Part shown: positions 24,275-60,169 of the stretch, piece by piece
How the letters are laid out: each line of letters begins with the position of its first letter
How positions within the stretch are numbered: position 1 is the first letter of the stretch
Assembly (NCBI GenBank): GCA_029232285.1
Contig: JAOXFI010000022.1
Span: forward strand, 1 to 64,000
Length of the DNA: 64,000 nt
DNA from: Agmasoma carcini (nom. nud.)
Lineage: Eukaryota; Microsporidia; Thelohaniidae
Direction of reading: 5' to 3'
Program-made: the position numbers and the translations under genes
The notes under the pieces: generated by a model
Told to the model about the DNA's origin: nothing
Seen by the model: the letters and a program-made list of their open reading frames with translations, nothing else
The model's database searches: none

Positions 24275-25474
24275 TTATGTAAAATAGTTGATTTTAGACT
24301 TCTTCTTAGACATCACCTCAGATATTCCTTCAATAAATTCAATTTGAGAAATTTCATTCCTACCCTTCTTAATTGCTGACATACCAGCCTCAACACAAAC
24401 AGCTTTACATTGGGCTCCATTGAAACCTTCTGTTGATCTAGCCAATTCTTGGAAGTTCACATCATCAGCAACAACCATATTTCTAGCATGTATCTTCATA
24501 ATCTTACTTCTACCCTCACAATTTGGAAGAGGGAATTCAATCTTACGGTCTAACCTACCAGAACGAAGTAACGCAGGATCTAAAATATCAACACGATTGG
24601 TTGCCGCAATAACTTTGACGTCAGAATTAACTGAAAATCCATCCAATCCATTTAGTAACTCTAGCAATGTTCTTTGAACTTCTCTATCACCAGTTGTATC
24701 TGATTGTGCCCTTTTCATACCAATAGCATCAACCTCATCAATAAAAATAATACACGGTTTTTTTTGTTCAGCCAAGGCAAACGCATCTCTAACCAACTTT
24801 GCACCATCACCGATATACATCTGAACAAGCAGGGGACCCGCTAGTTTCAAAAAAGTGGCATTTGTTCTAGCTGCACATGCACGAGCTAAAAGCGTCTTTC
24901 CATTACCGGGTGGTCCATACATTAAGACACCTTTAGGTGGTACAATATTAAGAGCTTCGAAGCGTTCTTGTGATTGGAAAGGTAGAATAACAGATTCGTA
25001 AAGCTCCTCCACTTGTTTTTCTAGCCCGCCAATATCAGAATAATCTTCTGTAGGTTTAGTCTCCAATTCCATAGCCTTTACTTTACTATCGTACGTGACA
25101 GGCAATCTTTCCAATATAATATTTGTATCCTTATGTAGGGCGAGAGAATCTCCAGGTTTGAGATCTTCACTCCCGCCAGGACCTAACATATTTAGGTAAA
25201 TGGACTGACGGGTTGATGTAACAACAACACCACTTCCAGGTTCAACATGCTCAACAAATGAACCAACTAAGAATGGCATTTGTTTGTTTAACTTGACCTT
25301 GTCCATATTATCTGATATAATGGCCGACTGCGTAGATATTTCATTTCTAATTCGATTGACCTCAGCGCTAAGGTACCTTGTTTCACTCTTAATTAACCTA
25401 CTCCTTTCAATGATGCTCTCGGCGGTTTCGTTCTCAATATCTGGTTCGGTTTCCCTCAATTTTTCCAAAGACAT
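24275..25474 (-). CDS. RPT5: 26S proteasome regulatory ATPase RPT5
   Basis: A 399-residue AAA ATPase of the 19S regulatory particle, which unfolds ubiquitinated substrates and opens the 20S gate. The order is an N-terminal coiled coil (about 5-50), an OB domain ([19 protein letters not shown]), then the AAA domain with Walker A GPPGNGKT, Walker [10 protein letters not shown], pore loop QMYIGDG and sensor/arginine-finger region [33 protein letters not shown] and [15 protein letters not shown] mark it as RPT5 rather than RPT1-4 or RPT6. The C-terminus ends NYFT. RPT5 normally ends in a hydrophobic-Tyr-X motif that opens the gate; here Phe replaces the Tyr. Confidence 0.95.
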
Positions 25475-28075: not shown

Positions 28076-28249
28076 AAATCAGTGAACAAAAGAGTTTATT
28101 CAAGAAAAATCCTTCTACAATTGGAACCTGAGGTTTTAGACTCAAAACATCCGAACTTAAATAGTTCCTTAAGCAGTACGAATAATATCAGAAGATTAGT
28201 TAGTAGTTTTATGGTATTGTTTGAAAAATAACTTAAATTAATATAACAC

Positions 28250-29002
28250 TTACAGTTTATCAATAGCATAATATGAATCTTGTACTCCTAACTGTTCACT
28301 CAAAGAATGAACAAAAATGATCAGAGACCAAAGGACCAACATAGATAAAACAATTTTTCTAGTTGTAGCACTACGAGCAGATAATTTGGAGGATACCAGC
28401 TGAAGAGATGCTATATAAGCAGCATCCATGAAGAAATAAGGTATAGACATTTTCTTGAGGTCTTTTGTTAAGAAAAATACCATTTTTATTATGTATCCCA
28501 ATAATGAGTATGAAATCAGTAGTTTTAAGCATTGCCTGTTTTGAATTTTCTCTTAAATTAATAAAAAACACTTACCGATTGTTCGTAAATCGCTATCATA
28601 TATTAACATGAATCGAGATGCGTTATATGGTGATATTCTCTTAAAAGAGTAGATTTTTTGAATGAAATCAAACAAAGATAACATTATGACTAACATTAGT
28701 ACAAAATTTACAGTACTTGAAAGTTCGTCTTCTTTAAACATGGTTAGGAATATGATCAAAGCATCATAGAGAGATTGAATTATTGAATAAAAATATCTAA
28801 ATGATTGTCCTTTTATGATAGAAAAGTAGATGTTGTATATGTTGAAGAAGTTGATCAAACAACTAGCGAATAACATGCCTTTATATTCATTCCTTGATTC
28901 AATTATTGAGCAATACAACATGCCTAGCAGTATATATTTGGATATGCATATAATCATGTGGTAGTTAATAATGTAATGTTCGTAATTATATTTAGAGACC
29001 AT
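28250..29002 (-). CDS. Multi-pass membrane protein, gene split by a 24-nt intron
   Basis: Two exons, 29002-28576 and 28551-28250, join across a 24-nt intron to give exactly 243 codons including the stop (242 residues). Unspliced, the frame stops right after the 5' splice site, and a second long frame with no suitable ATG follows; removing the intron joins them in frame at a Glu codon. The protein has about five or six hydrophobic segments: residues about 18-30, 40-60, 66-90, 96-113, 155-175 and 205-225. It has no recognised catalytic motif and I do not recognise the family. An endomembrane protein is plausible. It is flanked on both sides by solo-LTR-like repeats. Confidence 0.75.
28552..28575 (-). 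other. 24-nt spliceosomal intron
   Basis: The minus-strand sequence is GTAAGT, then TGTTTTTTATTAAT as part of a T-rich middle, and an end in TTAATTTAAG. It has the consensus 5' splice site, a branch-point-like TTAAT and the AG within a few bases of each other, as described for microsporidian introns in which the branch site and 3' splice site are nearly fused. Its removal restores the reading frame of the membrane-protein gene (codon G|AG). Confidence 0.75.
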
Positions 29003-45179: not shown

Positions 45180-45620
45180 CAATTAGGTGGCTAAATAAAT
45201 CATCACTTTAATACCTTTTTTAGTTTATATTTTGCCTGAGACCAAATACACTCAATAGTTTGCGTTTATACACTTGTATCATGAGGTTGACGAAATTATA
45301 TAAAATTTTGATGTTCTTATATTTATATCTACCATTTATAATATTTAATAGTGATTATAATTTCTCTATTCATCTGTTCTATTGTCCACCACTTTAACAA
45401 AGCAATTTTTGTTCCTCTTTCAACACCTTCTAATACCCAAGATTCTCTTTTAACTCTGCCACTGTTATATTTTCTTTTTAAAAACAAACTCATCTATTTT
45501 TATTTTTGTTAAAAAGAAATGTATCATACCATCTCTGCACACTTCTTGCCATAATTGTATAGTCTTTCTGTTGACATTTAATCACGATTGTATGTCTGTA
45601 TGAGGCATATCAAAGCTTTT
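45180..45620 (-). pseudogene. ISXO2/IS1595-like transposase relic 3
   Basis: The minus strand shows YNYGKKCAEMV (about 45540), IDEFVFKKKI, then in another frame KYNSGRVKRESWVLEGVERG and TKIALLKWWT (about 45400-45480). The C-terminal hallmark DTSVYTQTIECIWSQAKYKL follows (about 45215-45275). It closely resembles relic 4 at 49400-50050, so the two come from one subfamily. Confidence 0.75.
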
Positions 45621-47123
45621 CTTATAAATAATTTTTAATAATATTTAAAACTTATTTTTTATGATGCTTCCTGCGCCTCTTAACATATTTTCAGCATTGT
45701 TGCTGTTATTGATTAGAACACGAATGTTTCGTACACTAAACAGTTCATGGTATTTTTAATTAATCTAAGCTAGAGCTAAAAATTTAAACCTTTCTTCTGC
45801 ATTGCCTAATCTTGAATATAAAAGATCTTCATGTATTTTAAAATTCAATTTTTCATCAAAATATAACACTGATGATAATTTTATAATATTATGATCGTGT
45901 CTTATTCTTACTATGGTTCTAAATAAATAATATACATAGATAAAATATTTTTGTATTAATAGTATTAAAATATATTAGAAATTAACTATATTTAAACATA
46001 AAATAAAACTTTAAAATAAAAATTTTAGTTATAAAATATTTACTAAATTTTTAAAAATGTTCTTAAAATTCAAAAATCTCTTATAACAGACATGAGCCAA
46101 AATTTCAATATTTTATCCAAGTATTGAGCAATAATTTATAAAAGAGTGCATTAAATTTAAAATTTAAATCTCAACAAGACAATGATTCAAAGCATAAAAG
46201 TAAGTTGACATCAATTTTTATATTTTGTATTAGAATGGTTTCACATAACACAACCTTATATTACATCTGTGAGCTTATTTAAGCAACAATTAAGATATGT
46301 TGTTTTTCGAAACGGGCACATTTAATATCAAAACTAATGAAATGTGATCTGATATTGGTATTGTATATTATAGAACATTAGTAAATCTATAAGTGACAGA
46401 ATTTAAGAAATTATGCTGGTAAAGCTAGACCATGCATCATATTTAATAATTATGTTCGGTTTTCAATTTAAAAATTTATCAAAATTATCAAAAGGTTTAT
46501 ATAAAATGTGCAATTTAAGAAATTAACATATTATGGATATAATCATACGATTAGACTCTAATTTTTTATGTTTTTCTATCTGAAAAAAACTTTTTGGGGT
46601 GTCTGTTTTTTTTTCATAAAATTACAAATTTTGTAATTGTTACAAATAGAACGTAAAAAGTTATGGAAGTTCATCAAAAATAATATCCAGGAAGGTCTTT
46701 GATGAAATCACATGGCTAGACCTCATAACATTATTATTATAAATTCGATCTTTGTAATTTTATAATCAAACATAAATAAGAGTTTTAAGAATAAAAAAGA
46801 GAACACATTAATATAAATGAAAGGATCTGAAGTGTCTAAAAATTGATACTAAGAAGACGTAATGTTTAGTAATCATATATATATGAATATGACAGATTAA
46901 AATATTAAGGTTTCAGAGCAAAAGTTATTGTTGTAAAAATATTCTCTTAAAATTTTATTTATTTTTATCAAATATTGTATAACATCACAATGTGATTTTT
47001 GATAGAATCTCTCAATTTTTATACTATGAAAATTTATTTGACTATATATATACGAACTGGATCATTATAATAATTTTTGATACTAACCTAGAAGATTTTC
47101 TAAATTCAAAAAAAATTCAAGTC
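45621..47123. other. A+T-rich region, nothing firmly recognised
   Basis: About 1.5 kb without a supported gene. The open frame that begins with GTG at 46992 is credible only from the ATG at 47124. Confidence 0.4.
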
Positions 47124-49127: not shown

Positions 49128-49399
49128 AAATTTTTTTGTTGTTTTTTTTTGTTTATTGATTCATGTTTTGAATGTTGTATGCTCTATCAACAACTTTTAA
49201 ATGTTTAAATTAAGGAAATCAACTGGTTTTTATTAATAAATGGTTTCTAATATGCTTAAATACCACAATTTTATATAAAAATTTTTTAAAAATATTTATT
49301 TAAAACCATGATAAGAACAAGACACGATCATAATATTATAAATCCATATTGCGTATTATCATTTGATGAAATATTAAATTTTAAAATACACGAAGATAT

Positions 49400-50050
49400 T
49401 TTATATTCAAGATTAGGTAAGTCTGAAGAATGAATTAATATACGCCCATTTTTGATTTATTAAAAATACATTGAACTGTTCAGTATGTGGAGAATTCTCG
49501 ACCCCATTTATGACAGCAGCAATGTTAAAAAGTTTGTTTGGAGGTGTAAGAAATATCATAAAAAGATAAGCTATTTTTCAAGTAAGATTGATCTTTAAAT
49601 ATTATTGAATAATATTTATATAATCAGCCTTGATATATCTCAGACAGAAAAAGCATATAATTATGACAAGAAGTGTGTAGAGATGGTATGATATACTTTA
49701 TTTTATCAATTAAAAATAAACGTATTAATGAGATAGGAAGAACAAAAATAGACAAAAATTTTCAAAAGAAAATATGACGGTGGTAGATTTGAACGAAAGA
49801 TTTTTGTAGTAGGCGGCATTGATATAGAAAAATTGCTTTGTTGAAGTAGTAGACAATATAAATGAATCAACAATAGAAAAGATTATAATAACAGATGAAT
49901 AGAGAGCCTATTAGACAACATTAAATAATATAAATAGCAGATGACATAAGACCATAAATTATCAATATAATTTTGTCACCTTTCATGATACAAGTGTACA
50001 TACGCAAACTATTGAGTGTCTTTGTCTAAAGTAAATATTGAACTTAGGAA
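49400..50050 (+). pseudogene. ISXO2/IS1595-like transposase relic 4
   Basis: Plus-strand pieces: AYNYDKKCVEMV (about 49655), KIDKNFQKKIYDGGRFERKI followed by FVVGGIDIEK (about 49750-49835), and HDTSVHTQTIECLC (about 49984-50028). This is the same order as relic 3 on the opposite strand. Stops are frequent. Confidence 0.75.
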
Positions 50051-60022: not shown

Positions 60023-60029
60023 TATAAAA
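60023..60029 (+). promoter_or_regulatory. TATA-like element upstream of U6
   Basis: TATAAAA lies 17 bp before the inferred U6 5' end. RNA polymerase III-transcribed U6 genes commonly use an upstream TATA element, although usually slightly further upstream. Confidence 0.45.
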
Positions 60030-60039
60030 AAATTCAACC

Positions 60040-60169
60040 GTGCTCAGCACCGCTATAATTTTGAACAACACTGAGAAGATTAGCATAGCCCCTGCGCAAG
60101 GACGGCATAAATCCCTCAGGAGAGTGGCCCGGTGTAGACCAGGTCCTTATAAAAAAACTTATATTTTTT
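60040..60169 (+). ncRNA. U6: U6 spliceosomal snRNA
   Basis: The central region GAAGATTAGCATAGCCCCTG followed by CGCAAGGA is the near-invariant U6 core and includes the AGC triad. It begins with a tight 5' hairpin (GTGC-TCA-GCAC). Two normally conserved sites differ. The ACAGAGA box reads ACTGAGA (60070-60076), and the GGATGA of the internal stem-loop reads GGACGG, putting C where the metal-binding bulged U is expected. The 3' part after about 60110 is not like other U6 RNAs and contains a GGT-GTAG-ACC hairpin. The T6 run at 60164-60169 would terminate RNA polymerase III, giving about 130 nt. The 3' boundary is uncertain. Confidence 0.85.

Follow-up and report, generated by a model that had tools for sequence, protein, structure and literature searches.

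Few sequences of eukaryotic RNA are as conserved as the ACAGAGA box of U6 snRNA, which is the same in nearly all eukaryotes. The DNA analysed here, called the window below, is a stretch of 64,000 nucleotides from the microsporidian Agmasoma carcini, and it contains a U6 gene in which the box reads ACTGAGA. The question raised by this locus is what a change at the third base of the box means for the way U6 meets the 5' splice site, and whether the introns of the same genome carry a feature that matches it. The answer proposed here is that this U6 probably recognises the 5' splice site by an unusually long helix of six Watson-Crick pairs, formed by AACACU and positions +4 to +9 of the predicted introns. 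The features on which this reading is built are collected in Table 1.

Table 1. Features of the window that bear on the U6 variant and on the predicted introns.
Feature	Position	Strand	Basis and remarks
U6 snRNA gene	60040-60136	+	Rfam RF00026 match
ACAGAGA-box equivalent, ACTGAGA	60070-60076	+	Sequence and Rfam alignment; third base (60072) is T, A in Rfam
AACACT, exact reverse complement of intron +4 to +9 (AGTGTT)	60067-60072	+	Predicted 5' splice-site-reading segment
AGC triad	60082-60084	+
U6 internal stem-loop (ISL)	60085-60108	+	Extent taken from predicted fold; directly after the AGC triad
CTCAG	60115-60119	+	Possible partner of 60071-60075 (box) in free U6
T6 stretch	60164-60169	+	Read from the sequence; possible transcript end
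Intron-bearing gene, predicted orphan protein of 286 aa with many hydrophobic stretches	28096-29002	-	Start 29002, stop ends 28096; spliced frame
Predicted intron 1, 24 nt, GTAAGTGTTTTTTATTAATTTAAG, phase 1	28552-28575	-	Motif search and frame restoration
Predicted intron 2, 22 nt, GTAAGTGTTATATTAATTTAAG, phase 2	28232-28253	-	Motif search and frame restoration

The U6 gene and its variant box

The variant box, which had been pointed out in an initial annotation of the window, lies inside a full-length match to the Rfam U6 family (RF00026, model positions 1-105 of 105) that scores 56.2 bits, above the gathering score of 44. The AGC triad within GAUUAGC and the ISL sequence CCCCUGCGCAAGGA are both there, and the box is one base off the ACAGAGA of the family. 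The gene is nevertheless classed as U6, since it is the covariance-model match that defines the family. The initial annotation had also described the flanks of the box as canonical, and this is correct for the downstream side (AGATTAGC) but not for the upstream side, where positions -1 and -3 depart from the Rfam consensus as well. The box region as a whole reads GAACAACACUGAGAAG, while the consensus is GAACGAUACAGAGAAG, and within the segment that would pair with the intron there are three differences: G to A at -3, U to C at -1, and A to U at the third base of the box. Yeast U6 has A at -3 as well, and only the latter two of these differences need therefore be derived. The remainder of the box, its downstream flank and the loop of the ISL are intact.

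The 3' side of the ISL (60100-60108) reads GGACGGCAT, compared to GGAUGACAC in the Rfam consensus, and thus has a C where a U stands. That U is bulged in known ISLs. As read from the sequence, the C at this site is a second change near the catalytic core. A TATAAAA motif is found at 60023-60029, about 17 bases ahead of the Rfam start of the gene, and the usual TATA distance is about -30. Since the motif sits nearer than usual, the true 5' end of U6 may lie further downstream, or another element may be used. At the other end, the transcript of this presumably expressed gene may extend beyond the Rfam match to the T6 stretch, which is a predicted 3' end.

The assembly to which the window belongs comprises 4,263,419 bases (4.26 Mb) in 69 contigs, and labels such as C7 and C12 used below refer to these contigs. 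When the whole assembly was searched with the U6 model only 60040-60136 was matched, and the pattern ACWGAGAAGATTAGC likewise gave a single match genome-wide, at the same gene. A second U6 gene with a canonical box, which the initial annotation had named among the findings that would refute its reading, was accordingly detected neither by model nor by pattern anywhere in the assembly.

The U6 pattern scan was also run on viral contigs, where it gave no match, and on prokaryote contigs, where it gave one. The latter is a canonical eukaryotic U6 with the box region GAACGAUACAGAGAAG, found on JAIYDP010000129.1 (L031), a contig binned as a Verrucomicrobiaceae MAG. The presence of such a gene there makes contamination of the bin probable.

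Introns in the window and in the genome

A single intron beginning with GTAAGT had been noted in the window. The start is right, while the number is not: two introns are predicted in one minus-strand gene, both starting with GTAAGTGTT and ending with TTAATTTAAG, and taking both out gives one frame of 286 codons. The hexamer GTAAGT alone was rejected as a mark of introns in the window, as it gave 20 matches compared to a mean of 30.3 in shuffled sequence. An initial intron scan of the window returned 53 noisy joins. The window also contains two diverged copies of similar sequence in opposite orientation, at about 45450-45910 (-) and 49390-49740 (+), which are likely a repeated element.

A loose motif, GTAAGT-N(2-32)-TAAYTTNAG, was used for the whole genome. 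It gave 16 matches, which is two to five times the 3 to 8 in each of six simulated genomes but no more than the 19 of the backward control. Both GTAAGTGTT and TTAATTTAAG are found in nine of the 16, and the strict motif consisting of these two occurs once in total across the six simulated genomes of equal size. A long reading frame is restored on removal of eight of the nine strict-motif elements, where the shorter side counts 37-106 codons. The lowest value, 37, belongs to C35, whose frame is still open at the end of the contig. None of the seven remaining GTAAGT matches has more than 33 codons on that side. A counterpart motif starting with GTATGT gave 12 matches in the genome (backward control 17), none of which restores a long frame, with at most 26 codons on the shorter side. 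Eight of the nine GTAAGTGTT elements thus have the features of spliceosomal (U2-type) introns: GT-AG ends, a branch-like TAAY and a frame restored by removal. The ninth (C33:55006-55044; L012:1501-1539) is 39 bases long and lies outside any clear frame, 186 bases before a frame of 220 codons. It could possibly be an intron in a 5' UTR.

One further element is supported by its reading frame. The site of intron 2 in the gene on C56 (19461-19483, minus strand) is occupied by GAAAGTGTTATTTTTAATTTAAG, which differs at +2 and hence starts with GA, not GT, and ends with AG. The downstream exon stays in frame and is 65% identical to the copy on C7. The element could represent a GA-AG intron, a recent mutation or a mistake in the assembly. 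Together this gives nine frame-supported introns (eight GT, one GA) of 22-24 bases, in six genes located on C7, C12, C21, C31, C35 and C56, where they sit at two recurring positions, one in phase 1 and one in phase 2. Position +4 is A in all nine, and all nine have GTT at +7 to +9, though the motif search left these last positions free. For positions +1 to +6 and the branch the constancy is partly a result of how the introns were selected, because GTAAGT and TAAYTTNAG were required by the motif through which eight of the nine were found.

The other bases at +4 were covered in several ways. Searching for a 23-base pattern that left +4 free and tolerated as many as two mismatches brought up five matches, against three for its backward control. 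Three of the five are exact, one is the GA copy, and one, on C45, has G at +4 and could be assigned to no gene. Introns starting with GTACGT and GTAGGT were looked for at this length of 23 nt only, while GTATGT had its own motif search, described above. A predominance of introns with T at +4, another result that had been held to count against the reading of the initial annotation, was not seen in this partial test, where A stands at +4 in 9/9 frame-supported introns and 0/12 GTATGT motif matches restore a long frame.

Two wider scans were made on C30:1-200000 and the window. The first used a coding score to find frame breaks that could be joined across GTNNNN...AG; neither GTAAGT nor GTATGT occurs among its 25 joins, and as the scan missed both of the window introns it must be considered insensitive or too strict. 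The second looked for introns close to start codons in the same 264 kb and gave 156 candidates, including five with GTAAGT and eight with GTATGT. In 11 of these 13 an intron is unnecessary, the downstream frame being open without any removal. The remaining two are intron 1 of the window and a GTATGT candidate of 66 nt at C30:150208 (-), where the downstream frame is closed unless the element is removed. This element is without a strong branch motif, and the candidate may be a chance occurrence.

All of the frame-supported introns are found in genes encoding orphan membrane proteins; ribosomal-protein introns were left out of the survey. The proteins (those of the window gene and of loci L003, L005, L007, L013 and L016) have about 290 amino acids and are rich in hydrophobic stretches. 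It is unusual for a reduced genome to retain its introns in such genes. One of the proteins was used for a database search, in which no relative at E 1 or better was found among 426 candidates from about 5.8 billion proteins. A Pfam search with all six gave three weak matches, each to one protein, the best with an E of 0.011.

The C7 and C56 proteins are 52% identical, and so are those of C12 and C35. Between the four lineages defined in this way, proteins are 18-30% and coding DNA 39-47% identical. Comparison with shuffled proteins shows a clear relationship of C31 to C7 and C56 (z 7.2 and 9.0) and a weak one of C21 to C7, C56 and C31 (z 3.8 to 4.1); C12 and C35 are hardly or not related to the others (z 0.1 to 3.3). 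The relationships of C31 and C21 to the C7/C56 pair mean that not all of the introns are independent. Recent copying as the sole source of the shared intron motif was rejected, given the low coding-DNA identity between lineages and the lack of a clear relationship between C12/C35 and the rest.

Fit between U6 and the intron start

Positions +4 to +9 read AGUGUU in 9/9 frame-supported introns, and AACACU in U6 (60067-60072) is the exact reverse complement. It occurs once within 60040-60165, and the register is the known one, in which the first base of the box meets +6, the second +5 and the third +4. The initial annotation had proposed that U at the third base restores a Watson-Crick pair with A at +4 and brings the number of pairs to three. 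The restored pair is supported, and the predicted run is longer, with six Watson-Crick pairs from +4 to +9 in each of the eight introns tested. The Rfam-consensus U6 gives no such run from +4 at all, as A at +4 then faces A.

The predicted energy of the duplex, with the register not forced, is -6.3 kcal/mol for the window U6 and -3.6 for the Rfam-consensus segment. A hypothetical form of the same intron start with U at +4 gives -4.8 with either U6, so the canonical U6 would not be much worse for such an intron. Given GUAAGU and the composition of the genome, the chance of a six-pair run is about 0.018.

The A-to-U change could also be explained by the structure of free U6. CUGAG (60071-60075) may pair with CUCAG (60115-60119) to form an internal hairpin that extends the ISL and masks the box until the 5' splice site displaces it, so that the change would serve to keep this hairpin and the fit to the introns would be secondary. 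The five-pair helix is indeed present in the minimum-free-energy fold, stacked on GAUU/AAUC and the ISL and with U60072 opposite A60118. It has a pairing probability of about 0.44, and CUCAG turns up in just 4.9% of shuffled 3' tails. However, the centroid structure is without the helix, the whole U6 does not fold better than dinucleotide shuffles (z -0.52), and putting A at 60072 in silico hardly changes the best energy (-27.9 to -27.6). A hairpin would also leave unexplained both the C at -1 facing the +7 G and the +7 to +9 sequence common to the introns, and we regard this explanation as unlikely.

Splicing machinery and known systems

In most eukaryotes the central A of ACAGA is methylated by METTL16 and contacts A at intron position +4 (PMC10581693). 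A at +4 is presented as the ancestral eukaryotic preference, meeting the m6A that METTL16 makes in U6 (PMC10581693; PMC13326754), while yeasts without METTL16 are described as tending to U at +4, which pairs with the unmodified A (PMC10581693). In the same account changes at +4 in yeast introns are never met by a change in U6 ACAGA, and a single red alga is named as the exception (PMC10581693).

The search for METTL16 (PF05971) gave no match at E 1 in the present assembly, which is possibly incomplete; the same search matched five of 14 control genomes, four of them over the cut-off. No match to U1 RNA (RF00003) was obtained in the genome at E 10, a threshold at which a diverged U1 could escape. 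A Prp8 U6-binding domain is encoded in an open frame of 1426 codons on C64. A U2 candidate at C30:251597-251738 (L032 1501-1642) scores 35.5 bits, which is below the gathering score of 46 in a search that gave weak matches in two of 14 prokaryote controls too, and it keeps GUGUAGUAUC unchanged. The Prp8 domain and this unchanged U2 sequence indicate that the spliceosome is likely kept. SNRNP27K (PF08648) was matched neither in the genome nor in the controls.

The U2 candidate retains GUAGUA, and its AGUGU is complementary to ACACU of U6. An additional U2-U6 contact through these two sequences is a possibility suggested by the complementarity.

Once METTL16 was gone and few introns remained, the third base of the box might have become unconstrained, and U could then have been fixed by chance through neutral drift. 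Few introns were indeed found, METTL16 was not found, and by simple reasoning one substitution would match A at +4 with a chance of about one in three. Against drift, the box is otherwise unchanged, a run of six complementary pairs is improbable by chance (0.018 given GUAAGU, as above), and introns in diverged genes have +7 to +9 in common. ACAGA is moreover reported as invariant in 240 fungal species (Saccharomycotina and outgroups), some of them without METTL16 (PMC10581693). Drift is for these reasons held to be quite improbable. It is very hard to believe that the U6 copy is decayed or misassembled in a lineage that is losing splicing, as might be read from the moderate Rfam score of 56.2 bits, the U2 candidate under its gathering score and the GA in place of GT in one intron copy, when this is the sole U6 copy detected, its triad, its ISL loop and the flank downstream of its box are intact, the Prp8 domain is there, and the introns restore frames.

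According to the six-pair reading, the loss of METTL16 would have removed the m6A, and the A would have been replaced by a U able to pair directly with A at +4. The latter could then be retained in the introns without METTL16, since U takes the place of the methylated A. The C found instead of U just before the box would pair with the +7 G of all nine introns, and the pairs of U+8 and U+9 with A would follow, giving U6 a longer grip within the spliceosome, perhaps because recognition by U1 is weak or lost. U6 and the introns, which are predicted to be spliced, have thus likely evolved to fit each other after the apparent loss of METTL16. The change in U6 had earlier been proposed to be compensatory with respect to the splice site. 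A better reading is that the change replaces an m6A:A contact in a genome that gave no METTL16 match; that A at +4 is the ancestral preference had not been taken into account. We infer that the U6 change compensated the loss of METTL16 rather than preceding it, an order of events and a selective cause that are deduced from the sequences.

The A-to-U substitution itself has a precedent, as the same change is reported for U6 of the red alga Cyanidioschyzon merolae, which has U at the central ACAGA position like the U6 of the window (PMC10581693, citing Stark 2015 and Wong 2023). C. merolae is described as lacking U1 snRNA (PMC11732430), and in the present genome U1 was not detected at E 10. The U6 of C. 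merolae is further reported to have no m6A (PMC8163875); here METTL16 was not found. Of the features that go with a substitution of the C. merolae type, A at +4 was observed in 9/9 frame-supported introns and METTL16 gave no match in the PF05971 search, in an organism that is a microsporidian and not a red alga. Saccharomycotina that lost METTL16 are likewise intron-poor, and in them too the +4 contact becomes Watson-Crick (PMC10581693). However, it is their introns that are reported to have switched to U at +4 while the box was constant (PMC10581693), whereas in the present genome A at +4 stays and U6 has changed.

A human-type U6, in which m6A43 faces A at +4, has the GTAAGT introns with A at +4 and the register of the box in common with the system described here. 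While the A:A contact of the human type is aided by m6A, the window U6 has a predicted U:A pair and more pairs downstream, and no methyltransferase was found.

The introns of the microsporidian Encephalitozoon cuniculi are also tiny (22-76 nt) and have a strict 5' site (PMC3629993). A TAAYTT branch motif is reported in all 13 introns counted, with two questionable ones left out (PMC2483917), and the TAATTT found here fits this motif. U1 is likewise reported as undetected in E. cuniculi (PMC3629993). The first 16 introns predicted in that species were nearly all in ribosomal-protein genes (PMC3629993), whereas those described here are in genes for orphan membrane proteins.

What appears to be new is the occurrence of the substitution in a microsporidian together with matching changes on the U6 and the intron sides. 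The titles and abstract openings of the literature searched contain neither a microsporidian U6 box variant nor ACUGAGA in connection with the spliceosome, which is weak evidence of novelty. A more far-reaching scenario can be put forward tentatively. With both U1 and METTL16 gone, the reading of the 5' splice site might have passed to a U6 altered in two places (to U at the m6A site and to C just before the box) so as to form the six-pair helix with a rewritten intron start, GUAAGUGUU. This would be an independent second origin of the solution found in Cyanidioschyzon, with an extension, and the spliceosome would then be kept maybe mainly for the orphan membrane proteins.

If the six-pair reading is right, the locus represents an independent case in which the snRNA, and not the introns, changed after loss of the enzyme that makes m6A in U6. 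For splicing biologists it would be a natural swap experiment on the contact between m6A43 and A at +4, and it would suggest that U6 can assume part of the role of U1 in reduced spliceosomes. As the genome has few introns, the fit between them and U6 can be read off almost completely.

The window also encodes a proteasome ATPase (24275-25474, minus strand), for which the best named microsporidian matches, among the best 120 of 7995, are from Pancytospora, Glugoides and Enteropsectra with 68-70% identity, which places this microsporidian near these three genera. A Brassica record in the first row of the same search looks like contamination.
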